64,000 nt of DNA from Maritimibacter sp. (GTDB lineage Bacteria; Pseudomonadota; Alphaproteobacteria; Rhodobacterales; Rhodobacteraceae): contig NZNT01000020.1 of NCBI GenBank assembly GCA_002695005.1, positions 434,001-498,000 on the forward strand, read 5' to 3'. The first letter of the stretch is position 1. Each line of letters opens with the position of its first letter. The translations under genes and the position numbers were made by a program. The notes beneath the pieces were generated by a model. That model saw only the letters and a program-made list of their open reading frames with translations, did no database searches and was not told the origin of the DNA. This document shows, piece by piece, positions 3,706 to 45,375 of this stretch.

Positions 3706-3721
3706 CGCGCAGTGAACAAGT

Positions 3722-3747
3722 CCCCCGACCTGCCAAGAGGTCGGGGG
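3722..3747 (+). other. stem-loop between dctP and dctQ
   Basis: A perfect 10-bp inverted repeat (CCCCCGACCT and AGGTCGGGGG) flanks a 6-base loop. No T-run follows, so it is not a classical terminator. Such hairpins after a binding-protein gene usually stabilise the upstream mRNA or partly attenuate transcription, giving more binding protein than permease. Confidence 0.75.
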
Positions 3748-3776
3748 CGTTCAAACCCTGAAGGACGGTGTTGTCG

Positions 3777-5527: not shown

Positions 5528-5553
5528 CATCCATTCAGAAGGGGGACAGAGAT

Positions 5554-6339: not shown

Positions 6340-6342
6340 GAA

Positions 6343-7287: not shown

Positions 7288-7288
7288 T

Positions 7289-8305: not shown

Positions 8306-10509
8306 CCTCGCCGCTTCCCCTCGACGGTGTCAGGGTTCTGGATGCGACGCATGTGATCGCTGGCCCTTACGCCACCTACCAGCTCGCGCTGATGGGGGCG
8401 GAGGTCACGCGCGTCGAGCGTGTCATGGGAAACGATTTCGTGCGCACGCACGGCGGGACGGAAGACATGCGGAAGCGGCGTCTCGGAGCGTCTTTCCTCA
8501 GCCAGAACGCCTGCAAAAGATCGATTGCGCTCAACCTCAAGGACTTTGACGCCGTCCGCGTGTTCAAGTCGCTTGCCCGCGAGGCGGATGTCGTGATCGA
8601 GAACTTCCGTCCAGGCGTCGTGGACCGCCTCGGCATCGGCTACGAGGAACTGCTCAAGGTTAATCCGCGGCTGATTTACGTCAGCATGAGCGGATACGGG
8701 GCCGAAGGTCCGATGGCCGAGTTTCCGGCCTACGATCATATCCTTCAGGGGTTCACTGGTCTCATGGCCATGACGGGAACCGAGGACAGCGGCCCGATGC
8801 GGGTTGGGTTCCCGATCACCGATTACATCGCCGGGCAGACCGCTGCGAACGCCGTGCTGATGGCACTTATTCAACGCGACCGGAACGGCGTCGCGTCCCA
8901 GAAGGTTGAGCTGTCCATGCTGGATAGTGTCGTGAGCATGATGTCGGCTTATGGTGTCGACTATCATACGACAGGCAATCTCCGAGGCCTCGAAGGAAAC
9001 ACCCCATTCTCAGCCAGTCCGTTTTCAGGTCGTTTTTCGACCCAAGAGGGCTATCTGGTCGTCACCGCGAATACAGGCCAGCAGGCGCGTGCGCTTTGCG
9101 AGATCCTGAAACAGCCGGGCTTACTCCGGGAGGATGACGACGACGCTGTGCGCGACGCCTTGGCGGAAGCCTTTTCGGCCAAGGCTGCTCTGGATTGGGA
9201 ATCAATTCTAAACGAAGCGGGTGTCCCTGCTGCGGCCGTGCGCGACCTGGCGCAGGTGCTCGACCACCCCCAGCTCGCGTCCAACGGCTTGATGCGTGAC
9301 CTTCCCGTTCCGCAGGTCGGCAGCAGTGTCCCGGTCAGCGGCTTGCCGGTGCGTTCGAGTGGCTGGGCGCAGCGCGAGCTGACGCCCGCGCCGGAGTTCG
9401 GTCAGGATACGCGCGCGATCCTGACCGCGCTTGGCTACGACTCCCGGCAAATCGATCACCTGCAAGCCAAGGGTGCCATCGACTATGAACCATCGTTCGA
9501 AATCGGAAGGACCTCGGAAATGTTCAAGGCACTGGTTGTCGAAAAGGACCCGGACGGCAAGACATTTGCAAAGGTCTCTGACCTGACCGAGGACGACCTG
9601 CCACCCGGAGAGGTGACCGTCGCTGTCGAGTATTCGAGCCTGAACTACAAGGACGGACTGTGTCTTGGTTCCGGCGGCGGGCTTGTTCGCGAATACCCTC
9701 ATGTGCCCGGCATCGACCTTGCCGGAACGGTCGAGACGTCCTCGGACCCGCGCTACAAGCCCGGCGACAAGGTGGTCCTCACCGGTTGGCGGGTCGGCGA
9801 GATCCATTGGGGCGGATATGCCCAGAAGGCCCGCCTGAAGGCATCATGGCTCGTGCCGCTTCAGGACGGATTGACAACGCGGCAGGCAATGGCAGTCGGG
9901 ACCGCGGGACTTACGGCCATGCTTGCTGTCCTGGCGCTTGAGAAACAAGGGCTCACACCGGAAGCCGGCCCCGTGTTGGTAACCGGCGCGTCCGGCGGTG
10001 TCGGGTCGGTCGCAACGTCGATCCTCTCGAACCTTGGCTATGAAGTCGCGGCGGTGACCGGGCGCCCTGAAGGAGCCGACTACCTGCGTTCGCTCGGGGC
10101 CAGTGAAATCGTTCCGCGCGACGAGCTTGCCGAGGTTTCCGAAAGGCCCTTGGAGAAAGAGCGTTGGGCGGGCTGCGTCGATGCCGTCGGCGGCCCCATG
10201 CTCGCGCGGATCCTGGGCCAGATCAAGTACGGCGGGTCCGTTGCCTCGATCGGCCTGGCAGGCGGTGCCGATCTTCCGGCGCGGGTCATCCCGTTTCTCT
10301 TGCGCGGCGTGAACCTGTTGGGAATCGACAGCGTGATGCAGCCCTACGACAGTCGCGTCGAAGCGTGGCGTCGTGTTGCGACCGACCTTCCCCTCTCTAG
10401 GCTCGAAGAGATATCGACCGTGGCCAGTCTCGAGGACCTCCCAGCATTGGGTGAAGCCATCCTGGCCGGGCGCGTCAAAGGTCGTGTGCTCGTCGATCCG
10501 AACCAGTGA
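8302..10509 (+). CDS. fusion of CaiB/BaiF class III CoA-transferase with AcuI/YhdH acryloyl-CoA reductase
   Basis: One uninterrupted 735-codon frame joins two enzymes normally made separately. Residues 1 to about 392 are a class III CoA-transferase, with the catalytic Asp D174 in ITDYIAGQ and the family opener [15 protein letters not shown]. Residues 407-735 are a full medium-chain oxidoreductase of the AcuI/YhdH subgroup: [27 protein letters not shown], a GASGGVGS nucleotide motif near 560, and LLGIDSV near the end. AcuI reduces acryloyl-CoA to propionyl-CoA with NADPH. The join ([14 protein letters not shown]) looks like a former gap: GGAAGGA lies 8 bases before ATG 9520, so the reductase could also be made alone. 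The gene overlaps the aldolase stop. Substrate inferred: the acid released by the C-C hydrolase. Confidence 0.9.
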
Positions 10510-10580
10510 CCGGAGCCGGCCAGGCATCCGAACGCCGGGCCGTTGAACGCTTTACAACGCTCGAGGTTTGTCAGCGACGC

Positions 10581-11249
10581 CTAGGCCTGCGCTTCGATGG
10601 CCTTCAATCGGCTGTGCAGCCTGCGGATATGAAGCCGCGCGGCCTTTTCGGCCGTTTCGGAATCCCTGGCCGCTATGCCTTCGTAGATGTGCCTGTGATC
10701 TTCGGCGGTCTGGCTCAGTTCGTTCGGCGTAAGATGCGCTTTCATCGTGTTCATCGCCAAGCGGATCTGGGCCTGCAGATCGTCCAACGAACGTGCAAGC
10801 TCCGGGTTGTCGGCCGCGTCCCGGATCAGCGCATGGAACCGCATGTTCGCTTTCTGACGGGCGACCGTGTCCGCCTTGAGAATGAGGCTTTCGTGCTCCT
10901 CCATCGCCGCTCGGATGTCTTCGATTTCCTCTTCGCTCGCGCGCAAGGCGGCGAGGCTCGCCGCCAACCCTTCGAGGACTTCCCTCAGTTCGAAGAGCCG
11001 GATCGTGTCGGAGAGCTCGCAATTCACGACCTCAACGCCCCTCCGCGGCCGCTCGACGGCGAGCCGTTGGCGCGTCAGCTTCTGCACGGCTTCGCGAACC
11101 GGACTCCGGCTGACGCCGAGTTTTTCCGCAAGTGCGGGGGCGGTCAATCGCGTGCCGGGTGGGATTTCTCCCGAGAGGATCTGTTCCCGCAGGTGCTCAT
11201 ACACGTTGTCTACGATGCGGTTTGCAGAGCCCGCTCTGAAATCGGCCAT
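10581..11249 (-). CDS. GntR-family transcriptional regulator (FadR/FCD subfamily)
   Basis: The 222-residue protein has an N-terminal winged helix (LAEKLGVSRSPVREAVQKL around residues 41-59) and an all-helical C-terminal FCD ligand domain, with the LREVLEGLAA and HRHIYEGI segments that hold the metal and ligand-binding residues. It faces the dioxygenase operon. The divergent region holds one copy of the 23-bp TTACATGTAA sequence, and a second lies before the ferredoxin operon. It is probably a repressor released by a pathway acid. The start at 11249 gives the family's usual N-terminus; the frame stays open to 11324, so a longer form is possible. Confidence 0.88.
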   Translation of the reverse strand: MADFRAGSANRIVDNVYEHLREQILSGEIPPGTRLTAPALAEKLGVSRSPVREAVQKLTRQRLAVERPRRGVEVVNCELSDTIRLFELREVLEGLAASLAALRASEEEIEDIRAAMEEHESLILKADTVARQKANMRFHALIRDAADNPELARSLDDLQAQIRLAMNTMKAHLTPNELSQTAEDHRHIYEGIAARDSETAEKAARLHIRRLHSRLKAIEAQA

Positions 11250-11331
11250 ATCCTGATATCCACACTGTCTGACGAGGTTGTATCTCTTCACTCGAAGATA
11301 CCAACAGACGCATCCGTGACGCAATAGAAAA

Positions 11332-11354
11332 CATGTTGCATGTTACATGTAATT
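11332..11354. promoter_or_regulatory. candidate GntR operator, copy 2 (dioxygenase operon / autoregulation)
   Basis: The sequence is identical over 23 bp to 1110-1132, with the same TTACATGTAA palindrome (11343-11352). It lies between the divergent GntR and dioxygenase genes, 42 bp before the dioxygenase start. One regulator bound here could control both directions. Confidence 0.8.
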
Positions 11355-11396
11355 ATGGGAGAGTCTGACGAAAGTCGTTCCGGAAGAGGAGAATAC

Positions 11397-12701
11397 ATGG
11401 CTGCGCCGATCGAAGAGCTGGTGGATCTGGATCGCAACGAGATTTCGCCACAGGTGTATTGCAGCGAGGAGGTCTACCGACGCGAAGTCGAGACCATCTT
11501 CGCCAAGTCTTGGCTCCTTCTGGGTCACGAAAGCCAGGTCCCCAAAGCAGGCGACTTCTTCACGTCGTCCATGGCGGAAGACCCCGTGGTCGTCGTGAGG
11601 CAGCGCGACGGATCTCTGCGGGCGTTCCTCAACCAATGCAGGCACCGTGGCATGCGCGTATGTCGGTCCGAGGTCGGGAGCGCCCGGTCCTTTATGTGTC
11701 CCTACCACGGGTGGACTTACGGGCTGGAAGGCGATCTCAAGGCCGTGCCGCACGAGGAGCAGTATGGCGAAGGGTTTGACAAGCAAAGCTGGGGGCTTCG
11801 CCAGGTCACGCGCCTCGAGACCTACAAGGGTCTGATCTTCGGGTGCTGGGACGAGGATGCTGTTCCCATCGAGGAGTACCTTGGCGACAGTGCCTACTAC
11901 CTCGATCAGCTCGTTGACCGCCTGGAAGGGGGGACCGAGGTGATCGGCGGGGTCCACAAGTGGCTCATCGACTGCAACTGGAAGATGCCGGCCGAGCAAT
12001 TCGCCAGCGACATGTATCACGCGGCTTCCGCGCATGTATCGGCCGTGCAGGTGTTCATGCCCGAGGACTACGATCCGCAGGTTCACAGCATGGATCAGCG
12101 CAAAGGGGCGCAGTTCTGGACCGAAGGCGGTCACGGCGGGGGATATTTTTTCGCGGATACGCCGAACCCGGCCGTTTGGGTCGATCCGGTGGCGCAGGAC
12201 TGGCTGCGTGACACGTTCGACGAGGCGTCGGAGCGACTGGGACGTTCGCGGGCAGCGCGCGTCAGCGGTCACAACACAGTCTTTCCCAACATGTCCTGGC
12301 TTAACGGGACGAACACGTTGCGGGTCTGGCACCCGCGTGGCCCAAACCAGATCGAGGTCTGGGCCTGGGTAATCGTCGACACGGCCGCTCCGGTCCACGT
12401 GAAAGACGCATTTCGCCGCGGAGCGCTGCGCGCATTCGGGCCCTCGGGGATGCTCGAGCAGGACGACGGCGAGAACTGGGTCGAGGTGCAGAAGGTGCTG
12501 CGCGGCTCCACCGCCGCACACAACCCCTTGTGCTACGGCATGCTAGAAGGTCGGGCAGACCAGGCCGAGCCGGACAGCGCGGCCAGCCATGGCCCCGTCT
12601 TTTCGGACAACGCGGCCCGCAACTTCTATCGCAGATGGCTCGAACTCATGACGGGGAAGAGCCAGCGGGAAATCGAAGACAGGGGGGTGGTCAATGGCTG
12701 A
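11397..12701 (+). CDS. aromatic ring-hydroxylating dioxygenase, alpha subunit
   Basis: This 434-residue terminal oxygenase has the Rieske ligands C81/H83 (NQCRHRG) and C101/H104 (CPYHGW), then the mononuclear-iron ligands in SDMYHAASAH (D205 as bridge, H208, H213) and an acidic third ligand in EQDDGENW (D356/D357). Its length and spacing match the BphA/NahAc-like alpha subunits. It adds O2 to the ring to give a cis-dihydrodiol. GGAAGAGGAG precedes ATG 11397. Its stop overlaps the beta-subunit start by 8 bases. The ring substrate cannot be read from sequence; the TRAP importer suggests an aromatic acid. Confidence 0.93.
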   Translation: MAAPIEELVDLDRNEISPQVYCSEEVYRREVETIFAKSWLLLGHESQVPKAGDFFTSSMAEDPVVVVRQRDGSLRAFLNQCRHRGMRVCRSEVGSARSFMCPYHGWTYGLEGDLKAVPHEEQYGEGFDKQSWGLRQVTRLETYKGLIFGCWDEDAVPIEEYLGDSAYYLDQLVDRLEGGTEVIGGVHKWLIDCNWKMPAEQFASDMYHAASAHVSAVQVFMPEDYDPQVHSMDQRKGAQFWTEGGHGGGYFFADTPNPAVWVDPVAQDWLRDTFDEASERLGRSRAARVSGHNTVFPNMSWLNGTNTLRVWHPRGPNQIEVWAWVIVDTAAPVHVKDAFRRGALRAFGPSGMLEQDDGENWVEVQKVLRGSTAAHNPLCYGMLEGRADQAEPDSAASHGPVFSDNAARNFYRRWLELMTGKSQREIEDRGVVNG

Positions 12702-13227
12702 GGACCACGAAGAGTCAGTCGACATGGCGACGCATTTTGCCATCTCGCAGTTTCTCTACCGCGAGGCTGAATTGCTGGACGACCGGGATTTCCGGGGTTG
12801 GATGACCTGTTTCTCAGAGGACGTCCACTACTGGATGCCGCACCGCACGAACCGTCCGCCGCGAGAGCGGGCGCGGGAAGTGAGCGCCGCTAACGAACTC
12901 GCGATCTACGATGAATTCCATCAGGACCTCAAGGCTCGTGTCGCGAAAATCGAAACCGGCAAGGCTTGGGCAGAGGAGCCGCCGTCCCGCACCCGACACT
13001 TCGTGTCGAATGTGCGCGTGACGCGGAAGGACGCGGATTTTCGCGTCCGCTCGAACATCCTTGTCATCCAATGCCGTAACGACCTCGACGAACATCTTTT
13101 CGTCGGCGAGCGCTTCGACCTCTTGCGCTCCGATCCGGAAGGTTCGGGCGGCTTCAGGATAGCCGAGCGCAAGATAGTTCTGGATCAGGCGACGTTACGC
13201 GCGCCAAGCATCAGCATTTTCTTCTGA
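12694..13227 (+). CDS. aromatic ring-hydroxylating dioxygenase, beta subunit
   Basis: The 177-residue protein has the NTF2-like fold of oxygenase beta subunits. AELLDDRDFRGWMTCFSED near residues 25-45, the YWMPHRTNR segment and the R-rich SRTRHFVSNV strand are typical of BphE/HcaF relatives. It packs with alpha into an alpha3beta3 hexamer and mainly has a structural role. It overlaps the alpha gene and is followed 13 bases later by the hydrolase, so all are in one transcript. Confidence 0.92.
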   Translation: MAEDHEESVDMATHFAISQFLYREAELLDDRDFRGWMTCFSEDVHYWMPHRTNRPPRERAREVSAANELAIYDEFHQDLKARVAKIETGKAWAEEPPSRTRHFVSNVRVTRKDADFRVRSNILVIQCRNDLDEHLFVGERFDLLRSDPEGSGGFRIAERKIVLDQATLRAPSISIFF

Positions 13228-13240
13228 AGGAGACTTAGAC

Positions 13241-14101
13241 GTGACAACTGTACTCGAGAAGCACACCGAGGAAAGCACTTCGCGTTTCGCGACAGTCGAC
13301 AGCATCCGTCTGCACTACCACGAGGCAGGCGAAGGTGAAGCTCTGGTGATGTTGCACGGCGCCGGTCCGGGTGCCTCCGGCTGGAGCAATTACTGGCAGA
13401 ACGTCGAAGAGCTCTCCAAGTCATACCGGGTCATCCTGCTGGACCAGCCCGGCTACGGCAAGACCGACAAGGTCATCCCGGAGAACGAGGCGCGGTCGGA
13501 GTTTTCGGCCCGCCTGCTTGTCGGGCTGCTGGACCAACTTGGCATCGACAAAGCGCACATGGTCGGCAACTCGTTCGGTGGCCGGACGTCACTCGTCATG
13601 GCTTTGCGGTATCCCGACCGGGTCGGGCGCTTGGTCATGATGGGTCCGGCGGGTGGCAGCCTGAACATTTTCATGCCGGAGCCGACCGAGGGCATGAAGC
13701 TGCTTCACGGCTTCTTCAAGGAGCCGGGGCCGAGCCGCGAGAAGATGCGTCAGATCGTCGATACGTTCCTGTACAACAAGGAGCTTGCGACCGATGCGCT
13801 CGTGGACAGCCGCTACGCTGTGGCAGTCGAACCGGAAACCCGCAAGTTTTACGAGCATTTCCTGTCGACCCCCGACAAGCGGGAGCCCGAACTCTGGCGC
13901 GAACTGGAAAAGATCAAGCACAGAACGCTGCTGGTCTGGGGCCGCGACGATCGGACGAACCCGTTCGAAGGCGGGCTGTTCATGCTCAAGCGGATGCCGG
14001 ATGCCCGGCTTCACGTTATTCCCCAGTGCGGTCACTGGGTGCAATACGAGAAATGCGACGAGTTCAATGCAATCCTGACGTCATTCATCGAGGCGGCGTG
14101 A
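13241..14101 (+). CDS. meta-cleavage product C-C hydrolase (alpha/beta hydrolase, BphD/MhpC type)
   Basis: The 286-residue protein has the catalytic triad S111 (GNSFGG), D237 (GRDDRTNP) and H265 (CGHWVQYE), almost the same numbering as BphD, plus the oxyanion-side motif MLHGAGPGASGW. It hydrolyses the ring-fission product 2-hydroxy-6-oxo-hexa-2,4-dienoate (with the ring's side chain at C6) into 2-hydroxypenta-2,4-dienoate and the side-chain carboxylic acid. The start is GTG 13241 behind GAAGGAG. Its presence shows that the ring carried a carbon side chain next to the cleaved bond rather than being cleaved to an aldehyde. Confidence 0.93.
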   Translation: MTTVLEKHTEESTSRFATVDSIRLHYHEAGEGEALVMLHGAGPGASGWSNYWQNVEELSKSYRVILLDQPGYGKTDKVIPENEARSEFSARLLVGLLDQLGIDKAHMVGNSFGGRTSLVMALRYPDRVGRLVMMGPAGGSLNIFMPEPTEGMKLLHGFFKEPGPSREKMRQIVDTFLYNKELATDALVDSRYAVAVEPETRKFYEHFLSTPDKREPELWRELEKIKHRTLLVWGRDDRTNPFEGGLFMLKRMPDARLHVIPQCGHWVQYEKCDEFNAILTSFIEAA

Positions 14102-14118
14102 GCGTGGGAGGTTCTGAG

Positions 14119-14964
14119 ATGAGTGTCTTTGCTTTGGGATACATCGGGTTTCGGACGGACGGTGCGATCGAGGAATGGCAGGCGTTCGGACAGGATACGC
14201 TCGGGATGAGCGGAACAGTGGAGAGCGGTGTCCTTCGCCTCAGGTCGGATGACCGGGCTTTTCGTCTTCAGGTCGAGAAGGGCGAGCCCGGCTTGGCTTT
14301 CGTAGGCTGGGAAGTCGCGAATGACGAAGCGCTGGCCGAGGTCGTTCGACGTCTCGAGGCGGCAGGTCATGAAGTGGAGCCCGCCTCGGCCGAAGATTGC
14401 CGGGCGCGCGGCGTTCGCGAAATGGTGCGCAGCGTCGACCCTGCGGGCACCCGCCTCGAGTTCTTCTATGGACAGATGTGTCCACAGTCGCCCTTCATCT
14501 CGCCGACCGGGACGCAGTTCGTTACAGGCGACCTCGGTCTGGGTCACGTGGTGTTCCAGGTGGATCGGTTTGACGAGACGCTGGATTTTTACCGCAGACT
14601 ACTGGGTTTCCGCGTGTCCGACATCTGGCAGGGTGAGAACGGCACCGCCACGTTCCTGCACTGCAATGCGCGCCATCACAGCCTCGCCCTGCGCCCAGGC
14701 GGTGACCCAGGCAATCCGCGCATGATTCATTTCATGCTCGAAGTTGCGACCCTCGATATGGTCGGTATGGCGCAGGATCGTGGATACGACGCGCTGACCC
14801 GACGCATGGGCCGGCATTTCAACGACATGATGCTGTCTTGCTATTTCCGGACTCCGAGCGGGATAGAGGTCGAGTACGGCACCGGCGGTATCCAGATCGA
14901 TGATGCGACTTGGACCGTAAGCCTGATCGACCGGCCGAGCGGCTGGGGACATCAGGCCCCGTGA
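14119..14964 (+). CDS. extradiol ring-cleavage dioxygenase (type I, BphC family)
   Basis: The 281-residue two-domain vicinal-oxygen-chelate protein has Fe(II) ligands at H143 (LGHVVFQV), H204 (RMIHFMLEV) and E252 (IEVEYGTGG). The conserved His pair ARHHSLAL (186-187) holds the catalytic acid/base. It opens a 3-substituted catechol next to the hydroxyls. It is a little shorter than BphC (about 295). GGGAGGTTCTGAG precedes ATG 14119; a longer upstream frame only covers the hydrolase end. A GTGA overlap leads into the dehydrogenase. Confidence 0.93.
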   Translation: MSVFALGYIGFRTDGAIEEWQAFGQDTLGMSGTVESGVLRLRSDDRAFRLQVEKGEPGLAFVGWEVANDEALAEVVRRLEAAGHEVEPASAEDCRARGVREMVRSVDPAGTRLEFFYGQMCPQSPFISPTGTQFVTGDLGLGHVVFQVDRFDETLDFYRRLLGFRVSDIWQGENGTATFLHCNARHHSLALRPGGDPGNPRMIHFMLEVATLDMVGMAQDRGYDALTRRMGRHFNDMMLSCYFRTPSGIEVEYGTGGIQIDDATWTVSLIDRPSGWGHQAP

Positions 14965-15803
14965 GCCGCGATCCGAACCTAGATCGCGGGCCTGCCCAAA
15001 GGGTCCTCGTAACGGGTGCGGCCTCCGGCCTGGGGCGGGCCATTGTCGAGGGATTCCTGACACGGGGCGCCTCGGTCGTGGGTCTGGACCGATCGCGGGA
15101 ACGCCTCGACGCGCTTTCGGCCAGCCTAGGGGGCGCACCTTTCGTGGCCGTCGAAGGCGATGTCACGAACTGGGAGGACAACCGCCGGGCCGTGGAGGCT
15201 GCCGTGGACCGTTTCGATGGCCTCGATTGTTTCATCGGAAACGCCGGTCTTTGGGATTTCGGCACGCGCCTGCTCGACCTGCCAGTCGAAAAGGCGGGCG
15301 AGGCATTCGACGAAGTGTTCGCGGTGAACGTCAAAGGCTACTTGCTTGGCGCGCGCGCTGCGGCGCCCGCTCTGGCCGAAGGGCGCCAGCCGTCGATGAT
15401 CTTCACCCTGTCGAACGCGGCCCTGTATCCGGACGGTGGAGGCGTTCTGTATGTGACCTCAAAACACGCAGGCGTCGGGCTGACGAAACAGCTCGCGCAC
15501 GAGCTCGCGCCCGATATCCGGGTCAACGCGGTCGCGCCAGCGGGCATGATTACCGAGTTGACCGGACCACCGGCCCTGGGGCGCGCCGACGAACGAATGC
15601 GCGACAATTGGGACCCCGCGGTTTTCGCGTCCCGCGTGCCGCTGGGCTTCACGCCGGACCCTTCGGACTACGTGGGACCTTACCTGTTCCTCGCCGACCA
15701 GGCCGCGTCTGGGACAATGACCGGAGTGGTTCTGCCTGCGGAGCTCGGCCTCGGTGTGCGCGGGATCCGGGCCCTGACCGGTGGGGGCGCCAGGAATGCC
15801 TGA
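14961..15803 (+). CDS. cis-dihydrodiol dehydrogenase (short-chain dehydrogenase, BphB type)
   Basis: The 280-residue SDR has the cofactor motif TGAASGLG (residues 18-25), the NAG-containing strand FIGNAGLWD and the catalytic YVTSK (Y164, K168). The GNAGLWD segment and overall size match the dihydrodiol dehydrogenases BphB/HcaB, which rearomatise the dioxygenase product to a catechol with NAD+. The start is a GTG inside the extradiol dioxygenase stop (GTGA). Its stop overlaps the next gene by 8 bases. Confidence 0.9.
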   Translation: MSRDPNLDRGPAQRVLVTGAASGLGRAIVEGFLTRGASVVGLDRSRERLDALSASLGGAPFVAVEGDVTNWEDNRRAVEAAVDRFDGLDCFIGNAGLWDFGTRLLDLPVEKAGEAFDEVFAVNVKGYLLGARAAAPALAEGRQPSMIFTLSNAALYPDGGGVLYVTSKHAGVGLTKQLAHELAPDIRVNAVAPAGMITELTGPPALGRADERMRDNWDPAVFASRVPLGFTPDPSDYVGPYLFLADQAASGTMTGVVLPAELGLGVRGIRALTGGGARNA

Positions 15804-17001
15804 GCCGGAGATCGGGCGCGTAGCCCACGGTTCCAAAGATGCTTCGCAAAGGGCGGACCTCGACTTCACGCTCGTTCGGATCGAGGGGTTCGCGTTTCGC
15901 GTTCCCGTCGAGATTCCCGTCGAGACATCGTTCGGAAAAATGCGCGATCGGCCTGCTGTGTTCCTGCGCGTGGAAGATGGCAACGGGAATTTCGGTTGGG
16001 GTGAAGTGTTCGCCAACTGGCCGGCCAGCGGTGCCGAACACCGCGTGAACCTGCTGATGGACGACGTCGCCGATCTCGTGCTTCGCAAAAGGTGGTCGAC
16101 CCCCGCCGAGATGTTTCACGAACTCGAAGAGGCGACACTTATCCGCGCGCTCCAATGCGGGGAGCCGGGGCCCTTCGCGCAGGTGATCGCCGGGCTCGAC
16201 ATCGCTGTCTGGGATCTCGTGTCGCGGCGCGCTGGACTTCCGCTCGCGAAGCTTCTTTCGTCAGCCCCGGCGACGCGCGTGGAGACCTACGCCAGCGGCA
16301 TCAAGATTGACGCGGCCGACGTGCTTGTTCCCCGGGCGAGAGCGGCCGGGTTCACACGCTACAAGGTGAAGGTGGGCTTTCATGAGCGCGATGTGGACAA
16401 GCTGGAGGACGCTTTCCGGCGCCTCAATCCCGGGGAATTGCTGTGCGCCGATGCGAACCAGGTCTGGTCATTGCCGATGGCCGCAGATTTCCTGAACCGC
16501 ATTCGAAAGGCAGGTGTCGCGCTCGGCTGGATGGAAGAACCTCTGCCGGTTTTTGCCCCGGCGCAGGAGTGGGCGACGCTAGCAGAACTCGGCACACCGC
16601 TCGCCGGGGGCGAAAACATTGCCGGTTTCGCAGCATTTGACCGCGCCATTCGCGAAAGCGGCTTTAGCGTCGTTCAGCCCGATGTCTCGAAATGGGGCGG
16701 TGTCACGGGATGCCTCGATGTGGCAAAGCGTACCCGCGCGGCGGGCAAGACCTATTGCCCGCACTTTCTCGGCGGCGGTATTGGGCTCGCCGCTTCTGCG
16801 CATGTCCTGGCCGCGGCCGGGGGAGACGGGGTGCTCGAGGTTGACGTGAATCCCAATCCGCTGAGATCGGCGTTCCAATTCGGCGAGCCGCCTCATGGGG
16901 CCGGGCACTGGGTAATCGGGACCGAGCCCGGACTCGGTTGCACGGAATTGCCGGCCTCACTGTTGCCCTACCTTTCCCATCGCCGGGAACGTGCGGCCTG
17001 A
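15796..17001 (+). CDS. enolase-superfamily enzyme (mandelate racemase/muconate lactonizing type), role unknown
   Basis: The 401-residue protein has the N-terminal capping domain and a TIM barrel with K190-V-K192, metal ligands D219 (ADANQ), E247/E248 (MEEPL) and E273 (GGEN), a D296-to-K299 segment (PDVSKWGG), and a likely base H323 (CPHFLGGGIG). A KxK plus His arrangement fits racemases, dehydratases and cycloisomerases; family members cannot be told apart by eye. It is the sixth gene of the dioxygenase operon, overlapping its neighbours on both sides, so it should act on a pathway acid or prepare the substrate. It is not a standard part of meta-cleavage pathways. Confidence 0.85.
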   Translation: MPEPEIGRVAHGSKDASQRADLDFTLVRIEGFAFRVPVEIPVETSFGKMRDRPAVFLRVEDGNGNFGWGEVFANWPASGAEHRVNLLMDDVADLVLRKRWSTPAEMFHELEEATLIRALQCGEPGPFAQVIAGLDIAVWDLVSRRAGLPLAKLLSSAPATRVETYASGIKIDAADVLVPRARAAGFTRYKVKVGFHERDVDKLEDAFRRLNPGELLCADANQVWSLPMAADFLNRIRKAGVALGWMEEPLPVFAPAQEWATLAELGTPLAGGENIAGFAAFDRAIRESGFSVVQPDVSKWGGVTGCLDVAKRTRAAGKTYCPHFLGGGIGLAASAHVLAAAGGDGVLEVDVNPNPLRSAFQFGEPPHGAGHWVIGTEPGLGCTELPASLLPYLSHRRERAA

Positions 17002-19438: not shown

Positions 19439-20890
19439 ATGACTGATCTGTCACCGAGCCGAGGCCGGCGGCAGCCCCTGCAATTGGAGACACAGAACTT
19501 GGACGGCACTGATTCACCGCCCTACGTTCCCCCTTATCCCGATCGGTTCGAGACCCCGCCTTCAACGCTGAAACGCGTTGCTCTGGCGCGCCGGAGCTTT
19601 CTGGATATCTGGTCGACGGCGGATTTCTCGCAGCGCATCGCCTGGGTGAAAGTCCTCACGCGCGATGTGGCTTTCGTCAATGCGCCGGATCTCGTGAAAC
19701 AGGTGTTTCAGGACAATCACCCCCTGCTTCAGCGCAAGAGCCCGCAGATGCGTCATGCGCTGGAACTCCTGCTCGGCGACGGGCTTTTCGTGAGTGACAG
19801 CGAGGTTTGGGCGGCGCGGCGCAAGATCGTCGCGCCGATCATCCACGGCTCCAGAGTGCCCGACTTCGCACCGGTCATGATCCAGGTGATCGAGGAGTGC
19901 CGCGACCGTTGGGAGGCCATGGGTGAGGGCGCCGAGATCGACGCCTCTGCGGAATTCGCGTGGTTGACGTCAGAGGTGATCTGTCGCGCCATCTTCGGCC
20001 AGACGCTGGGCGAGGCCTATGCAGGCGAAATCGTGCTGGGATTTGCGGAATACCAGCGGCGGATCGACCAGCTCGACCTCGCCTCATTGATGGGTTTGCC
20101 GGAGTGGTTTCCACGGTTTCGCGGCTTCGGGGTGCATAAGTCGGCCCGTCGCATCCGGACCGTTCTGGACCGGATCATCGACCGGTTCGAGGCAGAGCGG
20201 ACGCCCGATGACACCACGGTCATCGCGGCCCTTCTGGATGCGCGCGACGAGGCGGGTGCGCCGCTGTCGCGTGAAGTGATCCGCAACGAGGCCGCCGTGA
20301 TCTTCATGGCTGGCTATGAAACGACCGCGAACCTGTTGTCGTGGGCGTGGTTCATCCTGTCGCAAGACCCCGTTTCGCGCAGGCGGCTCGAGGATGAACT
20401 CGACCGGGTCGTGGGGGACCGGGCGACGACCTATGACGACGTGGCGAACCTCCCGTACACCCGCGCGGTGGTTTCGGAAACGCTCCGGCTGTATCCGCCT
20501 GTTCCCATTCTCGCGCGTGAAGCGATTGGGGAGGTGAAGATCGGGCCGAGGGTGTTTCCCAAAGGTTCGCTTTTCATGGTCGTCGCCTGGCTGTTGCACC
20601 GCAACCCCACGCTCTGGCCCGATGCCGACGGTTTCCGGCCCGAGAGGTTTCTGGAACCCGACGACAGGTCGCGCATCAAGAAGCCCAACAAATATGCCTA
20701 TGTCCCGTTCGCCACCGGCCCGCGCATCTGCGCCGGGATGGTGTTTGGCGAGGCCGAGGCCATTCTCGCACTCGCGGTCCTTGCACAGCGGTTCCGGCCT
20801 GAATTGAAGCCGGGTACGCAGGTGAAGCCGCACTGCCGGCTGACCCTGCGTCCCGGGGATTCCCTGCCAATGATCCTGCGCAAACGATAA
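19439..20890 (+). CDS. cytochrome P450
   Basis: The 483-residue soluble P450 has the I-helix AGYETTAN (the acid/Thr pair for O2 activation), the K-helix ExxR motif SETLR (E347, R350), a PERF motif (FRPERFLEP) and the haem loop FATGPRICAG with proximal C431. Length and the N-terminal PPYPDRFETPP stretch are like bacterial CYP102/CYP4-type fatty-acid or lipid hydroxylases, but the substrate cannot be assigned. No ferredoxin or reductase is adjacent, so electrons must come from elsewhere. Its TAA overlaps the acyltransferase start (TAATG). Confidence 0.93.
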   Translation: MTDLSPSRGRRQPLQLETQNLDGTDSPPYVPPYPDRFETPPSTLKRVALARRSFLDIWSTADFSQRIAWVKVLTRDVAFVNAPDLVKQVFQDNHPLLQRKSPQMRHALELLLGDGLFVSDSEVWAARRKIVAPIIHGSRVPDFAPVMIQVIEECRDRWEAMGEGAEIDASAEFAWLTSEVICRAIFGQTLGEAYAGEIVLGFAEYQRRIDQLDLASLMGLPEWFPRFRGFGVHKSARRIRTVLDRIIDRFEAERTPDDTTVIAALLDARDEAGAPLSREVIRNEAAVIFMAGYETTANLLSWAWFILSQDPVSRRRLEDELDRVVGDRATTYDDVANLPYTRAVVSETLRLYPPVPILAREAIGEVKIGPRVFPKGSLFMVVAWLLHRNPTLWPDADGFRPERFLEPDDRSRIKKPNKYAYVPFATGPRICAGMVFGEAEAILALAVLAQRFRPELKPGTQVKPHCRLTLRPGDSLPMILRKR

Positions 20891-21903
20891 TGCCGGCCCC
20901 GGACCCGAAGAACCCCCGCTCGATTTCCGAGCTGTCGTTCGACGTCACCCGTGCGCCGCGCGATCCGCGACCGCCGCTCGCCTGGGCCTGGTCGGAGATG
21001 GCCGAACGCCGCCGAGCCTGGCGCTGGCATTGGCTCACCGATCCGCTGATGGGCACCGGCAAGCTGGCGATGCACCACCTGATGCGCCGGATGCCGGCCT
21101 CTGCCGCGTCGGGGGTGGGTGCCATGCTCGGGCCCGTGGCGCACCGGGTCAACCGCAGTGCGCCCTTCCTTGCCCATATGCGGGCGAACACCCAGAAGAT
21201 CCTTGGCACTGACGCGGCGGGTGCCGATGCGGTGCTGGCGGACTGGTGGGTCAACACCGGTCGCATCTTCGCCGAGTTCGCGTCCGTCGAGAAGATCGCC
21301 CAGGCCAGCGATACCGATGCGCTGCGTCAGCAGCTGACGGCATTGGCCGAGCGTCACGGCACGATCATCTTCGTCTCGGTCCATGTCGGATCGTGGGAGT
21401 CGCTGTTCGGTGTGCTCCAACGGCTCATGAACCGTTCGGTGATCGGCCCGTATCAGCCGGAACCAAGCCGGTTCAGCAATCGCATCGTCGAGGAGTCCCG
21501 GAAGCGGCGCGGGATCTATGCGTTTCCGCCGGGCCGCAGGAGCGCGATCTACCTGTCACGCTTTCTGACGAACGGATCGGCGCACGGGTATTTCATGATC
21601 GACGAGATTCACAAAGGCTCGTCCCGGTTCCCGCAGCTCGGTCGGCCCGTGTCGATGGAATCCAACGCAGCCCGGGCGGTGAAGATCGCGATCAGGAGCG
21701 GGGCCACGCTCGTCCCCGTCGTGATGCCACGCCGCAGGGGCGTCGACTTCGACGTCCGGCTGTTCGACCCGGTCCCGGTCTCGGACGGGTCGTCCGAGGA
21801 GGCACGCATCCGGGCCACCGTGCGGGCGCTCAACGATGTGTTCGAGCCGGTTGTGCGCGATGAGCTGCGTCAGTGGTACATGCTGACGACGCTGAACCTG
21901 TGA
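20890..21903 (+). CDS. lysophospholipid/lipid A-type acyltransferase (LpxL/HtrB family)
   Basis: The 337-residue protein has the HX4E catalytic motif of the LpxL/HtrB acyltransferases at H165-E170 (VHVGSWES). The later SNAARAVKIAIRSGATLVPVV strand helps form the acyl pocket. A hydrophobic stretch near residues 50-75 may anchor it to the inner membrane. Members move fatty acyl groups onto lipid A or ornithine-type lipids. It overlaps the P450 gene by one base, which suggests that the two act on the same lipid. Confidence 0.85.
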   Translation: MPAPDPKNPRSISELSFDVTRAPRDPRPPLAWAWSEMAERRRAWRWHWLTDPLMGTGKLAMHHLMRRMPASAASGVGAMLGPVAHRVNRSAPFLAHMRANTQKILGTDAAGADAVLADWWVNTGRIFAEFASVEKIAQASDTDALRQQLTALAERHGTIIFVSVHVGSWESLFGVLQRLMNRSVIGPYQPEPSRFSNRIVEESRKRRGIYAFPPGRRSAIYLSRFLTNGSAHGYFMIDEIHKGSSRFPQLGRPVSMESNAARAVKIAIRSGATLVPVVMPRRRGVDFDVRLFDPVPVSDGSSEEARIRATVRALNDVFEPVVRDELRQWYMLTTLNL

Positions 21904-21922: not shown

Positions 21923-24900
21923 CTAAAGGTCGATGACCACGTTGCCACCGGGTTCGGCGGCCCGGGACTGACACAGGATGATGGCCTGCTCACGCTGGCT
22001 TTTGGACAGGACGAAATCGCGGTGTTCGACTTCGCCCGAGACGAGGCCGCATTTGCACACGCCGCACAGCCCGTCGGAGCATTTCACGTCCACACGGTAG
22101 CCCGCGTCATTCAGCACGTCCGCCGCCGTTCGGTCTTCCGGCACGTCGAGCGTCTGGCCGGAACGGGCGAGGGTGAGCGTGAAAGGATGGTTCTCGTAGT
22201 CCGGCACTTCGGGCACTGAGAAGTATTCGAGATGGCGTGCCTCGTCCGGGAAACCCTGCCGCGTCGCCGCGTCGATCACGCCGCTCATGTAGCGGTCAGG
22301 GCCGCAGGTGTAGACGTGCCAGCCCGGGGCGTAGTCCGAGAGCAGGGTATCGAGGTCCGCGCGGGTGCCTTCGTCGGAGACATGCAGGCTTACCCGGTCG
22401 GCCCAGGGGGCGTTGGCCAGATCGTCGAGATAGGCCGCAGACACGCGCGACGGGACAGAGTAGTGCAGCACGAAATCCGCGCCGATGGCGTGAAGCCGGT
22501 GGGCCATCGCGATCATCGGCGTCACGCCGATTCCGCCGCCCATGAGGAACGTCCGGGTCGCGCTCTCATCCAGCGGGAAGTGGTTGATCGGCTTGGAGAT
22601 GAAGATCTTGCGGCCTTCGCTGAAAATCCGGTGGAGCAGCATGGAGCCGCCTCGCCCTTCGTTTTCGCGCAGCACGCCGATCTGGTAGACCGAGCGGTCC
22701 GCAGGGTCGCCCGACATCGAGTACTGGCGCAGGTATTCCGGGGCCACGACGATGTCGAGATGCGCTCCGGCCTCCCACGGGGGAAGGTCGCTGCCGTCGA
22801 GCGTTCGAAACTCGTACTTGGTGACGTCCGGCGACATGGCCTCGGCCTTGGAGACGGTGACGCGCAGCACCGGGCTTTCGCCATCGGCGGTGTAGCGGTG
22901 GAGGACACTGTCGTCCCCCGCCTCGCGCCGGCGCTTGTACTCGTCCGCCGTGACCATCGCCTGATACGCTTCGATCCCTGCTTCGCGGTCCATCGGGAAG
23001 GGATAAGGCCACGGATGGGGGGCGAGGTTCGCGGGATAGACCGCGAGGGTCTGGTCCGCGTAGGTCAGCTTCAAGTCGGCTTGCAGGTCGCGGGCGTTCA
23101 CGGGAGCCCGGGCGGGGCGGTAGCCGCCATCCTCGTACAGCTCGATGTCCCACCACCATTTCTTGACCGGGTTCAGCCCGCCGTTGTCGACCGCATCATC
23201 AAGCCTCGCCAGAAGCGGCGCGGCCTTCGGCAGGTTCATCGCGGCCCAGCGGAAAGGCTTCTCGGCGAAGAGCCCCTCAAGGTTCCACGGGCAGGTCTTC
23301 ATGCAGCGCCCGCACATCGCGCCGCCCTCGGTGGTGATGCGGTAGGTCGCGCATTTCTGGCTGTCGGATTTCCAGATCTCGTAGCCGTTGAACATGAGTT
23401 TCGGACCGGCGGTGATCGCGCCGGAAGGGCATTCCCGCGCGCATTTGTTGCAGGACTCACAGAACGCCTGCATCCCGAAGTCGATGGGCTTGTCATGCGC
23501 CATCGGCATGTCGGTCGTCACCACGCCGGACTTCAGGCGCGGGCCGAGGAAGGGGTTGAGGATGACCTCGCCGATCCGGCTGACCTCGCCCAGACCGGAA
23601 AGCAGCAGGAGCGGCGGTTGAAGCACCTCGCCATCCAGAACCGTATGGGCTTTGGCCGAATAGCCAAGGTTGCGGATCTGCTTCGCGATGACCCCGCCCA
23701 GAAGCGAGAACCGCAGGTAGGCGCGCATCGACTGGGCGACGCTGATCCAGTCGTCGCCGCTCGCGCCCTCCATCGTCTCGTAGCCCTGATCCACGATCAT
23801 GCTGATCGCCTGATCGTGGGGCGGGTCGATCTCGGCCCCCGTCGCGTCGTGGGAATACCATGTCCAGTCCGGGCAGCGGCTGACCCCGACCGCATCGATG
23901 CCGAGGAAATAGCTCGCAGCCTTGATGTTGGCGGCGTTGCGTTCAGCGTCCGTCGGGCGGGGTCCGTCGTCGGGTTTGCCGTCCTGCAACAGGACGAAGG
24001 CCCCGAGCATCCGCCGTTGCGCCATCGAGGGCGCGGCCTTGCGCGCGTAGTGCCCGCCCTTTGCCCCATCCTGCGCCGCCTTGCCCATGTCGCCGAACTG
24101 CGCGCGGGCGAACATGTCGGTGCGTTTGGGCACGCGGGCGACGTTGGGTTCGTCGATATAGGTCGTGGGCGTCTCCACCCGTTTGAGCGTTTCGAACGGG
24201 TGCGGGCCGTCGACGATGTCGCGCCGCGCGTAAGGATCGCCGTTCAGCGCCGAGCGCCGGAACCCGGCCCCGAGCCACCATGCGGGCCCCTTGGTGCGAA
24301 ACGCGGGCTGGCGGGCGGCAGGCAGGAGCGCGCCGTCGTGGTGCAGGTCGAGGTCAGTGGTCACGACGGCCACGCCGAAGCGGTCGCCCAGGTAGGGCGC
24401 TTTGAGACGCCCGCCCTCGACACTGGCCAGACCGGCGGCCACGGTCAGCACGTTCAGGTCGACATCCGTGCAGGTCGCGGAATGTGCCTTGGCGTCCCAG
24501 CCCAGCAGGCGGATGTAGTTGGCGATGACCACGGCGGTTTCCGTGGCGCGCAGGCAGGCGCGATGGGCCTGCGCATCCGCAAGCCATTCGCAGCCCTTCT
24601 CGTCCGGTCGCGGGTCGCGCGGATGGTCGTAGAGAAAGACGATGGTGTGCTTGTGTCCGGCGATGGTGGTGGGCGGGGCCTCCATCGACTCCTTGAGGTC
24701 GGCCATGATCATGTCGATGCCCGAGGCCAGCGTCTTGGTCTGCTTTGTGCGCAGGTCGTGGGCGAGGCGCTCGATATCCGGATTGATCCGAGGCTGGTCG
24801 AGGAGCGCTGCGTCCGGCAGCGGGCCGACCCCCACCATCGCGGCATCGGAGAAGTACCCGAAGGCCTTGAGGTGATTGGCCCGCTCCGCCGGGTCGTCCG

Positions 24901-25132
24901 GGCACTCGGCCCGCGTCTTGTTCACGAGCCCGTCGCGGATCGCATCCATCATCGCCTGATAGTCACCCATAGCGTTCACGATGGAAGTGGGTGCATCGGG
25001 CCGACGGAAGTCTAGTGGCCGGTAGGGGGGCACCGAGGCGAGGTCGGGCATCGGTCCCCGCGCGAGCCGTTCGAGCGGGAAGGGCCCAAGGTGGACCGGA
25101 CGGTTCTTGTCCGAGAAAAAACGGATGGTCAT
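21923..25132 (-). CDS. self-sufficient catabolic reductive dehalogenase (RdhA-reductase-ferredoxin fusion)
   Basis: The 1069-residue protein lacks a Tat signal, so it is cytosolic, unlike respiratory RdhA. Residues about 1-370 look like a degenerate copy of the cobamide-binding nitroreductase-like domain. Residues about 370-555 form the active B12 domain, followed by two [4Fe-4S] motifs, CESCNKCARECP (about 557-568) and CGRCMKTCP (about 605-613). Then comes a phthalate-dioxygenase-reductase-like unit: RQYSMSGDP for flavin (about 800), GGGIGVTPM for NAD(P)H (about 865), and a C-terminal [2Fe-2S] ferredoxin with CSDGLCGVC. This matches NpRdhA/BhbA-type enzymes that remove halogens from halogenated hydroxybenzoates with NAD(P)H. 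The start follows GGAGGAGAAG. Confidence 0.93.
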   Translation of the reverse strand: MTIRFFSDKNRPVHLGPFPLERLARGPMPDLASVPPYRPLDFRRPDAPTSIVNAMGDYQAMMDAIRDGLVNKTRAECPDDPAERANHLKAFGYFSDAAMVGVGPLPDAALLDQPRINPDIERLAHDLRTKQTKTLASGIDMIMADLKESMEAPPTTIAGHKHTIVFLYDHPRDPRPDEKGCEWLADAQAHRACLRATETAVVIANYIRLLGWDAKAHSATCTDVDLNVLTVAAGLASVEGGRLKAPYLGDRFGVAVVTTDLDLHHDGALLPAARQPAFRTKGPAWWLGAGFRRSALNGDPYARRDIVDGPHPFETLKRVETPTTYIDEPNVARVPKRTDMFARAQFGDMGKAAQDGAKGGHYARKAAPSMAQRRMLGAFVLLQDGKPDDGPRPTDAERNAANIKAASYFLGIDAVGVSRCPDWTWYSHDATGAEIDPPHDQAISMIVDQGYETMEGASGDDWISVAQSMRAYLRFSLLGGVIAKQIRNLGYSAKAHTVLDGEVLQPPLLLLSGLGEVSRIGEVILNPFLGPRLKSGVVTTDMPMAHDKPIDFGMQAFCESCNKCARECPSGAITAGPKLMFNGYEIWKSDSQKCATYRITTEGGAMCGRCMKTCPWNLEGLFAEKPFRWAAMNLPKAAPLLARLDDAVDNGGLNPVKKWWWDIELYEDGGYRPARAPVNARDLQADLKLTYADQTLAVYPANLAPHPWPYPFPMDREAGIEAYQAMVTADEYKRRREAGDDSVLHRYTADGESPVLRVTVSKAEAMSPDVTKYEFRTLDGSDLPPWEAGAHLDIVVAPEYLRQYSMSGDPADRSVYQIGVLRENEGRGGSMLLHRIFSEGRKIFISKPINHFPLDESATRTFLMGGGIGVTPMIAMAHRLHAIGADFVLHYSVPSRVSAAYLDDLANAPWADRVSLHVSDEGTRADLDTLLSDYAPGWHVYTCGPDRYMSGVIDAATRQGFPDEARHLEYFSVPEVPDYENHPFTLTLARSGQTLDVPEDRTAADVLNDAGYRVDVKCSDGLCGVCKCGLVSGEVEHRDFVLSKSQREQAIILCQSRAAEPGGNVVIDL

Positions 25133-25313: not shown

Positions 25314-27023
25314 TCAATGCTGGTCCGAGACAGCCACCGCCACATCCAGAAGCGCCGCGCGGCCTTCGTTGCGGATCGCGTGAAGCGCGCGTTTGAGTGC
25401 GGCGGGAAGATCCTCGGCGCTGTCGACACGTTCAGAGAAGGCGCGGCTCGCCCCCGCGATGGCCGCGAAATCGGGGGTCGGTGCGAGCGAGGTCAGAGGC
25501 ATCTCGTTGGCGCGCACCGCGTCGCCCTCCGGATAGGCTGTGACGACCGAGCGGCGCACCGCGTTCCACATCGCGTTGTTCTTCACGATGATAAGGACGG
25601 GCAGGCCCAGCGACTCGGCGATCTGGTGGCAGGCGACGGGATTGGCGAAGATGTAGGACCCGTCGCCCATCGCCGCGATGGTCAATTTGCCCGGACGCGC
25701 CAGCTGTGCCCCGAGCGCGGCAGGCAGCGCCCAGCCCAGCCCGCCGGAATGGGGGTTCGAAAACAGCCGGTTCGGCCCCTTCATGCGCAGCGCGGCGGGA
25801 ACGAGGCCCAGTTCGCTGAAGATGACCGCGTCGTCATCCATGACCTCCGACAGGCAATGACTGAGCCATTCGGCACCCATCGGCTCGCTCGCGCGGGCCT
25901 CTGCGATCAGGGCGTCGCGGCGGGTGGCGCGATCTTGCGCTTTGGTTCGCAGGGTGGCGCGGCGGGACTCCAGCACCTCCGGGTCCGTCTGCATCGCCTG
26001 CGTGATGGCCTCGACAGTGGCCGCGGGGTCGCCGGTGATCGAAAGGTCGGAGTGGTAGCCGCGCACCGGCATCCGGGTGAAGTTCGGGTCGGCCCCGACA
26101 TGGACGATCTTCGCGCCGTGGTCCGGCGATTGGGTCGCCTCGATCCACGGCACGCCGGAATCGATCACAAGGATCACGTCGGCCTCCCGCGTCAGATTGG
26201 GCGCATGGCCAAGTGCGGCGGGGTCGTCATGGGCCAGCAGGTTGCGCACGACGAAGGGTTCGACGGTGCCGATCCCGTGCGTGCGTCCAAGCTCTGACAG
26301 CGCGGCGGCGAGACGGCCCTCGGGATCTCCGCGCTGACAGATCACCAGCGGGTTCGTTGCGCAGGACAGGATGTCGGCCGCCGTCTGCACCGCGTCCGGG
26401 TCCGGTGCGGCAGCCGTCGCGGCAGGGCGCGGGGAGGGGTCCGAGCGGCGCGGGGCCTCGATCGTTTCGGCCAGAGGCTCACGCGGAAGGCTGAGGTAGA
26501 CCGGTCCGCGCGGCTCGGACAGGGCAAGCGACACCGCGCGCGCGGCAAGCGCACCGGCCTGATCCGCATAGCGCATTTCATAGTTGAATTTCACTGCATC
26601 GCGCACGAGCGACGTCTGGTCATACATCTCCTGCCCGTACTGGATCGGCGTCATCCGGCTGCCTTCGTGCCCCACTTCGGTCAGGGGTGTGCGGCCCGAC
26701 ATCATCACCAGCGGCACGTTGTCGGAGGCGGCGTTGAGGACGCCCATCACGGCATTGGCGAGCCCCACGTTGACGTGAACCATGATCGACTGGGGCCGCC
26801 CGGTCGCAAGGTAATAGCCATGTGCCATGCCCACGCCCGCAGTCTCGTGCGGGACGGTCACGGGGGTTGGCATCTCGCCCGCGTCTCGGCCTGCAAGTGC
26901 CTCGATTGCCGAGGGAAAATCGGTTCCCGCATTGGCGAAGAGATAGTCGATCCCGCTCGCCTTCAGCCCTGCCAGGAGCGCCTGCGCCCCGGTCTGCGGC
27001 GTGGCCGTATCATCGTCGTCCAT
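25314..27023 (-). CDS. thiamine-diphosphate-dependent enzyme (acetolactate synthase/benzoylformate decarboxylase family)
   Basis: The 569-residue protein has the three-domain ThDP fold: the N-terminal catalytic Glu E60 in PHETAGVGMAHG, a central Rossmann-like domain, and the C-terminal cofactor motif MGDGSYIFAN...VKNN (about 450-480). GAGGGAGG precedes the start. Lone members of this family in aromatic clusters often decarboxylate aromatic 2-oxo acids to aldehydes, which would fit the aldehyde dehydrogenase at 31906. Acetolactate-synthase-like carboligation is the alternative. It lies 181 bases upstream of the dehalogenase on the same strand and diverges from the TAXI-TRAP operon. Confidence 0.85.
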   Translation of the reverse strand: MDDDDTATPQTGAQALLAGLKASGIDYLFANAGTDFPSAIEALAGRDAGEMPTPVTVPHETAGVGMAHGYYLATGRPQSIMVHVNVGLANAVMGVLNAASDNVPLVMMSGRTPLTEVGHEGSRMTPIQYGQEMYDQTSLVRDAVKFNYEMRYADQAGALAARAVSLALSEPRGPVYLSLPREPLAETIEAPRRSDPSPRPAATAAAPDPDAVQTAADILSCATNPLVICQRGDPEGRLAAALSELGRTHGIGTVEPFVVRNLLAHDDPAALGHAPNLTREADVILVIDSGVPWIEATQSPDHGAKIVHVGADPNFTRMPVRGYHSDLSITGDPAATVEAITQAMQTDPEVLESRRATLRTKAQDRATRRDALIAEARASEPMGAEWLSHCLSEVMDDDAVIFSELGLVPAALRMKGPNRLFSNPHSGGLGWALPAALGAQLARPGKLTIAAMGDGSYIFANPVACHQIAESLGLPVLIIVKNNAMWNAVRRSVVTAYPEGDAVRANEMPLTSLAPTPDFAAIAGASRAFSERVDSAEDLPAALKRALHAIRNEGRAALLDVAVAVSDQH

Positions 27024-27106
27024 CAGTTTCCTCCCTCGGTCCGTTGCCGGAACGTGCCCATAAATTGTTCTTGTCATCCAACTTTAGCAACCGCAAACTG
27101 AGCGCG

Positions 27107-40688: not shown

Positions 40689-40689
40689 G

Positions 40690-41373: not shown

Positions 41374-41383
41374 GGAGCGGACC

Positions 41384-42703: not shown

Positions 42704-42709
42704 GACGAC

Positions 42710-42738
42710 CGCGGACGGGGTCGCTGGCCCCGCCCGCG
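42710..42738 (+). other. stem-loop between mgsC and gmaS
   Basis: An 11-position GC-rich stem with a single A-C mismatch encloses a 7-base loop in the 60-base gap before gmaS. No T-run follows. It may tune the amount of gmaS mRNA relative to mgsABC. Confidence 0.5.
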
Positions 42739-42763
42739 ACCAACAGGGAAAGAGGGAAAGACG

Positions 42764-44080: not shown

Positions 44081-44114
44081 ACGCGGGGAGTGCGCCCTGC
44101 CGGGGAGAAGACCC

Positions 44115-45365: not shown

Positions 45366-45375
45366 GAAGGCATCC

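Follow-up and report, generated by a model that had tools for sequence, protein, structure and literature searches.

The window, a stretch of 64,000 nucleotides from a Maritimibacter sp. contig (NZNT01000020.1), carries on its minus strand an intact gene of 1069 codons and a stop, here called rdhA-PDOR. Its product very probably belongs to the RdhA-PDOR subfamily of self-sufficient cytosolic reductive dehalogenases, in which a corrinoid dehalogenase (RdhA) is continued by a phthalate dioxygenase reductase (PDOR) module, and very probably works by the mechanism and on the substrates proposed below. All sequence features of this catabolic, self-sufficient subfamily were found in the protein. The enzyme kind itself has been described before, with BhbA and JtRdhA as examples; according to the available passages of PMC10463259 (JBC 2023), BhbA was the first described, and the PDOR module is present in most catabolic RdhAs. 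An earlier, sequence-only reading of the window had proposed the same identity at 21923-25132. The coordinates were exact, although no strand had been given, and the identity is borne out by the family model and by the match to the known dehalogenase NpRdhA in both sequence and fold. The gene and its parts are as follows.

21923..25132, minus strand: rdhA-PDOR fusion gene, complete coding sequence with its stop, 1069 aa
25144..25150, minus strand: ribosome-binding site GGAGGAG, read directly, 11 nt before the rdhA ATG
24209..24952, minus strand: N-terminal corrinoid-domain copy, apparently vestigial, about residues 61-308, from the profile alignment
24659..24817, minus strand: insert region, residues 106-158, 53 residues against 11 in NpRdhA
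23153..24208, minus strand: catalytic corrinoid/[4Fe-4S] half, about residues 309-660
23717..23719, minus strand: codon of Y472 (NpRdhA Tyr426), from the alignment, kept in 127/127
23531..23533, minus strand: codon of K534 (NpRdhA Lys488), from the alignment, kept in 127/127
23339..23341, minus strand: codon of R598 (NpRdhA Arg552), from the alignment, kept in 127/127
23291..23461, minus strand: two [4Fe-4S] motifs, cysteines 558, 561, 564, 568, 594, 607, 610 and 614
22217..22867, minus strand: flavin/NAD(P)H reductase module, residues 756-972, with RQYS at 802 and GGGIGVTP at 865
21926..22183, minus strand: plant-type [2Fe-2S] domain, residues 984-1069, cysteines 1018, 1023, 1026 and 1054

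The frame ran from the ATG at 25132 to the stop at 21923-21925. This ATG was preferred to a GTG at 25429, which opens a longer mechanically called open reading frame (ORF), because the longer frame overlaps the end of the upstream gene and the annotated starts of Ruegeria sp. TM1040 and Jannaschia sp. M317 match the ATG position. Near full-length matches to the fusion were present in 109 genomes of the same bacterial family and in 80 of the 80 loci kept, and none of 85 translated relatives contained an in-frame stop, so the frame is not a chance one.

The NCBIfam model RDH (TIGR02486) scored 202 bits on the protein against a curated cut-off of 160.35. In the search of solved structures, residues 2-105 together with 159-735 matched NpRdhA (E about 1e-155), and residues 752-1060 matched the phthalate dioxygenase reductase 2pia (E 1e-60), with the self-sufficient P450s matching about the same residues as 2pia. 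Pfam alone was insufficient to name the protein, since no reductive-dehalogenase model matched at E 0.001 and the flavin/NAD part was covered by DmmA-like_N only, below its cut-off (26 vs 33 bits); the Pfam matches over cut-off were the 4Fe-4S dicluster (Fer4_7 and Fer4_16) at 558-617 and Fer2 at 987-1058. Taken together, the Pfam matches, the 2pia match and the cysteines agreed with the earlier claim that two [4Fe-4S] motifs, a flavin/NAD(P)H reductase and a plant-type [2Fe-2S] domain lie in one polypeptide. The motifs of the reductase module are presumably its flavin, NAD(P) and [2Fe-2S] sites. No twin-arginine (Tat) motif was found, the sole RR of the first 60 residues being at position 43, and thus the Tat signal of respiratory RdhAs is absent, as had been claimed. 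The genes flanking rdhA matched an acyltransferase and a thiamine-pyrophosphate (TPP)-dependent enzyme, and no search aimed at rdhB, the membrane-anchor gene expected next to a respiratory rdhA, was made.

Alignment of the window protein with NpRdhA paired 571 residues, 246 of which were identical (43%). The residues F291, S422, M423, Y426, K488 and R552 of NpRdhA corresponded to F341, S468, M469, Y472, K534 and R598 of the window protein; the catalytic Tyr and Lys, whose loss would have told against a dehalogenase, are thus both in place. Across 127 aligned fusion sequences (124 being distinct), these six active-site positions did not vary in any of the 127, and neither did the eight cysteines of the [4Fe-4S] motifs or the four of the [2Fe-2S] domain. 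This conservation bears on the idea that the protein is a corrinoid reductase with a non-organohalide substrate, such as a QueG-like enzyme or one catalysing some other reduction. Epoxyqueuosine reductases do belong to the class III corrinoid proteins and the QueG model (TIGR00276) gave a weak score, but that score was 22 bits, far below the cut-off of 200, whereas the RDH model was over its own, and the NpRdhA active-site residues were kept throughout, which leaves the idea very improbable.

Profile comparison also supported the duplicated cobamide domain. Residues 1-345 and 385-660 aligned with each other in hhalign at 99.5% (E 3e-22, 164 columns), while the controls, in which each half profile was compared with the reductase module, gave 0.03% and 0.2%. 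In the N-terminal copy, C193 stood opposite Y472 and G253 opposite K534 (the pairing being read from the profile alignment), and the cysteines of the [4Fe-4S] motifs were confined to the catalytic half, none of them occurring in the N-terminal copy. The N-terminal half therefore fits a vestigial copy, as C193 and G253 replace the catalytic Y472 and K534.

The predicted model of the window protein had a mean predicted local distance difference test score (pLDDT) of 70.6 and a predicted TM-score (pTM) of 0.62, from a shallow input of 42 sequences, the others being 73-90% identical to the query. The structure search with this model returned the NpRdhA chains as the best match, at a TM-score of 0.80 of the target; the next best matches, 6laa, 2pia and 6kbh, fell on the reductase part.

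Comparison with known systems showed how the parts are combined. NpRdhA of Nitratireductor pacificus (4ras, 6zxu and related structures) shares the fold, the duplicated corrinoid half, the two [4Fe-4S] clusters and the Y/K/R triad, but it is without the reductase module. Over its C-terminal third the window protein has the flavin/NAD(P)H/[2Fe-2S] module of 2pia and of the self-sufficient CYP116B-type P450s (6kbh, 6laa), in the latter of which it is also fused in cis; in these proteins, however, the catalytic partner is a separate dioxygenase or a P450 rather than a corrinoid protein. BhbA of Comamonas sp. 7D-2 (plasmid pBHB, NC_021077.1) is a full-length fusion, 51% identical from end to end; its catalytic residues agree with those of the window protein and its insert falls at the same site, although the sequence of that insert is quite different. 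Its gene lies on a soil plasmid, with ligA-type and extradiol ring-cleavage genes next to it. JtRdhA of Jhaorihella thermophila, likened here through its published description, lacks a Tat signal and has a duplicated corrinoid domain, two [4Fe-4S] clusters, PDOR and the same active-site residues (PMC10463259, available passages). Another Tat-less RdhA has been characterised from Roseobacter sp. MED193 (PMC13101508, AEM 2026); the motif positions stated in the available part of that paper imply that it is much shorter than the fusion. The same strain also has a full-length fusion (locus L122) with 77% identity to the window protein.

In the mechanism that we propose by analogy with these enzymes, NAD(P)H would hand a hydride to the flavin in the reductase module at the C-terminus, and single electrons would then move through the [2Fe-2S] domain and the two [4Fe-4S] clusters to a base-off corrinoid. 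The reduced corrinoid would attack the ortho-halogen of a halogenated phenol and the halide would leave, with Tyr472, paired with Lys534, protonating the ring carbon and Arg598 binding the substrate by its acidic side group. The corrinoid half at the N-terminus may be a scaffold standing in for the second subunit of a dimer. The reaction of the window enzyme is most likely the removal of bromine or iodine ortho to the phenol hydroxyl with NAD(P)H. Its natural substrates are likely to be phenols that carry bromine or iodine together with an acidic side chain, for example bromo-4-hydroxybenzoate or bromo-4-hydroxyphenylacetate, and the dehalogenated product would enter ordinary aromatic pathways (the host has PobA). 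Bromotyrosine-derived substrates were considered and set aside, as the host genome had no HpaB and the literature search found no supporting paper.

The substrate range of JtRdhA gives the nearest precedent. As described in the available passages of PMC10463259, JtRdhA acts with NADPH on bromo- and iodophenols, under aerobic conditions too, while the chlorinated and fluorinated compounds in the test panel were all left unconverted and the chlorinated ones were inhibitory. The earlier suggestions of NAD(P)H-driven work in aerobic cells and of bromophenolic substrates agree with this precedent, by which bromo- and iodophenols are likely substrates and chlorophenols likely not. Dichloro-4-hydroxybenzoate, which had been put forward as a test substrate, would by contrast be a poor choice, because JtRdhA was inhibited by, and inactive on, the chlorinated compounds tested. 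Oxygen-tolerant NAD(P)H-driven dehalogenases are sought for bioremediation, and few of the RdhA-PDOR subfamily have been assayed.

The insert at residues 106-158 was 52-53 residues long in all 127 fusions. An insert in the RdhA part has been described as specific to reductase fusions (PMC10463259); the passages available give no coordinates, and we infer that the insert drawn in the figure of that paper is the one seen here. One protein departed from this rule. The gene at L206:4967-7222 (genome G673) encodes a reductase-less two-domain RdhA of 751 aa with 57 residues at the insert site, where the seven other reductase-less two-domain proteins had 4-12. In a tree of 41 sequences, built from columns 309-720 with the insert excluded and with the root placed by assumption on eight single-domain RdhAs, the 25 fusions formed one group (support 100/99), L206 was sister to all of them (100/99), and the seven other reductase-less two-domain proteins branched outside; FastTree trees put L206 at the same position. 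Since L206 has the insert without the reductase and branches just outside the fusions, the insert is probably older than the reductase. With a single intermediate and an assumed root, these sequences suggest the order duplication, then insert, then reductase. A second insert-bearing reductase-less RdhA was not found in the order or family of the L206 genome (296 and 32 genomes, respectively): seven further matches spanning almost all of the 751 aa were fusions of 1069-1134 aa, and two truncated cases, L215 and L217 (open frames of 871 and 777, no complete ORF), could be of either type.

We lean slightly towards a fuller scheme in which a single-domain cytosolic RdhA was duplicated, an insert of about 42 residues came next, and the reductase was fused last and only once, each stage having living examples that include tandem single-domain pairs. 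The insert would then be by origin an element of the dehalogenase, for example an active-site lid, and not a device for docking the reductase. With L206, the question whether the insert is there for catalysis or for docking of the reductase can be put directly. The three single-domain RdhAs tested were all over the RDH cut-off, and all eight in the tree kept the Y/K/R triad and the eight cysteines, with the Met at 469 not kept. At L224:5146-7778 and L227:4430-7062, two single-domain RdhA genes stood in tandem with a 4-bp overlap; both proteins of each pair retained the triad and the cluster cysteines, and the L227 pair was over the RDH cut-off. Possibly the two partners of a pair form a heterodimer that looks like the two joined halves of the fusion.

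The fusion is common in the window's bacterial family and rare outside it. It was present in 109 of 295 sampled family genomes, nearly all of different genera (hand count, own genome included; matches over at least 93% of the query). Split or truncated copies occurred in three more (G099, G102, G269), fragments or stop-bearing copies in G096, G160, G212 and as a second copy in G193, and a reductase-less relative in G033. Internal stops or two frames were seen at G096:C17, G193:C12, G099:C4 and G269:C1. Such broken or split copies suggest that relatives can do without the gene and that it is gained and lost. Across the phylum (398 genomes), 18 matches were obtained at E 1e-100, 15 of them in the window's family, and the remaining three comprised one full fusion in another family (G546) and two matches to the RdhA part only. 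Of 385 genomes of the class, 31 matched, with nine full fusions, five of them in the window's family; the other matches covered only RdhA parts, some at contig ends. The gene was located on long chromosomal contigs and on plasmids, with 8 of 72,556 plasmids matching over no less than 80% of the query. Maritimibacter harenae (90% identity) was the closest named relative in the set of 80 loci that were kept, a set in which JtRdhA was not present by name. No prior report of the family distribution or of the insert order was found in the literature searched, which consisted mostly of titles and abstract openings. The presence of the fusion in over a third of the sampled family genomes points to reductive debromination as a widespread trait of the family.

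Several observations weigh against the proposed reading of the window protein as a dehalogenase of this kind. The predicted model was weak in the catalytic core, with pLDDT below 50 at 498-532 and 583-617 among others. The structural comparison with NpRdhA proposed earlier thus succeeded for the fold and not for the triad, the geometry of which rests on the sequence alignment because the model is weak around the active site. No catabolic neighbour was conserved when mechanically called ORFs within 9 kb of 86 loci were clustered at 35% identity over 60% length, the top family being a MarR-type regulator at 9 of the 86 loci. The host match to the cobaltochelatase CobN contained one in-frame TGA, no HpaB was matched in the host genome, and PcaH was found there only far below cut-off. 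Since HpaB is absent and PcaH far sub-cut-off, the genome does not demonstrate a full route for the product. The CobN match nevertheless scored 1602 bits against a cut-off of 822 and PobA 702 against 539, six LigB-family matches were over cut-off, and the RDH gene of the window was the only one over cut-off in the host genome; cobalamin synthesis and use of 4-hydroxybenzoate by the host are therefore plausible from its gene content. The earlier description of the enzyme as catabolic and not respiratory stands as far as the Tat motif is concerned, while the word catabolic is the name of the subfamily and finds no conserved catabolic neighbour behind it.

The neighbourhood also bears on what the enzyme is for. 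Thirteen window proteins were searched against 85 other loci, and against 90 loci (80 named and 10 own-genome); the 85- and 80-locus sets overlap in genomes, and the own-genome loci account for the 100% hits. Homologues of the TPP enzyme, the aldehyde dehydrogenase and the flavin monooxygenase were found at 1, 6 and 1 of the 85 loci, and those of the TPP enzyme and the aldehyde dehydrogenase at 1 and 8 of the 80 named loci. None of the 13 neighbours was within 6 kb of the 90%-identical M. harenae gene. With no neighbour conserved beside rdhA, no pathway is indicated. It is quite possible, if at somewhat under even odds, that the same chemistry serves to detoxify or scavenge toxic bromophenols generally rather than as one dedicated catabolic step. 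The lack of a conserved neighbourhood over the 86 loci and at M. harenae, the occurrence on both chromosomal contigs and plasmids, the broken copies, and the MarR-type regulators (directly adjacent to rdhA in eight of the nine cases, one member being annotated so) all fit this role. The available passages of PMC10463259 speak against it in that JtRdhA lets E. coli W grow on a bromophenolic acid and BhbA lies within a bromoxynil catabolic plasmid cluster, as does the richness of the window region in aromatic-catabolism genes. Food and protection are both possible roles for the dehalogenase.

Upstream of rdhA, the gene nearest to it is the following.

25314..27077, minus strand: thiamine-pyrophosphate-dependent enzyme (PRK08327 family), upstream of rdhA on the same strand

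This gene ends 181 bp upstream of rdhA and is a possible operon partner in the window. A local pathway could be drawn in which it acts with the aldehyde dehydrogenase and the flavin monooxygenase to convert a halo-aryl 2-oxo acid to the aldehyde and then to the acid before dehalogenation. TPP-type genes lie a few kb from rdhA in Comamonas pBHB, in M. harenae (L109, a profile hit) and in Tritonibacter horizontis (L176, 44% identity), and the aldehyde dehydrogenase homologues given above add to this. The window and Comamonas TPP proteins are, however, only 33% identical, and a TPP profile, built partly from these hits and hence biased towards finding them, matched at 4 of 85 loci (1.67 Mb) and 3 of the 80 named loci (1.10 Mb), where about 4.3 and 2.8 matches were expected from the 11 TPP genes per 4.27 Mb of the own genome. 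TPP genes are thus not enriched near rdhA, and we regard such a pathway as improbable. The TPP-enzyme-like ORF of M. harenae, L109:1608-3431, lies about 2.6 kb upstream of rdhA and was not recovered with the window TPP protein at E 1e-20.

Beyond the dehalogenase gene, the window contained several other gene groups. On one side of rdhA, 1323-17001 held a biphenyl/phenylpropionate-like ring-dioxygenase and meta-cleavage set with a G+C of 0.59-0.64, below most of the rest. It included HcaE/HcaD-like, BphB/C/D-like, hydratase, aldolase and acetaldehyde dehydrogenase genes, of which only the aldolase and the acetaldehyde dehydrogenase reached their cut-offs. The other side of rdhA held TRAP/TAXI transport, IclR, amidohydrolase, aldehyde dehydrogenase and flavin monooxygenase genes, and the genes of neither side were conserved with rdhA. 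At 19439-21903, a cytochrome P450 gene was followed immediately by an LpxL-like acyltransferase gene, convergent with rdhA. Further along, GATase, glutamate-synthase-like, glutamine-synthetase-like, DAO and sarcosine-oxidase-alpha-like genes stood in a row at 39801-48596, which we take to resemble the N-methylglutamate (methylamine) pathway. The minus-strand gene at 59969-63466 encodes a protein of 1165 aa with CHAT as its C-terminal domain (151 bits); the TPR match of this protein fell slightly short of its cut-off.

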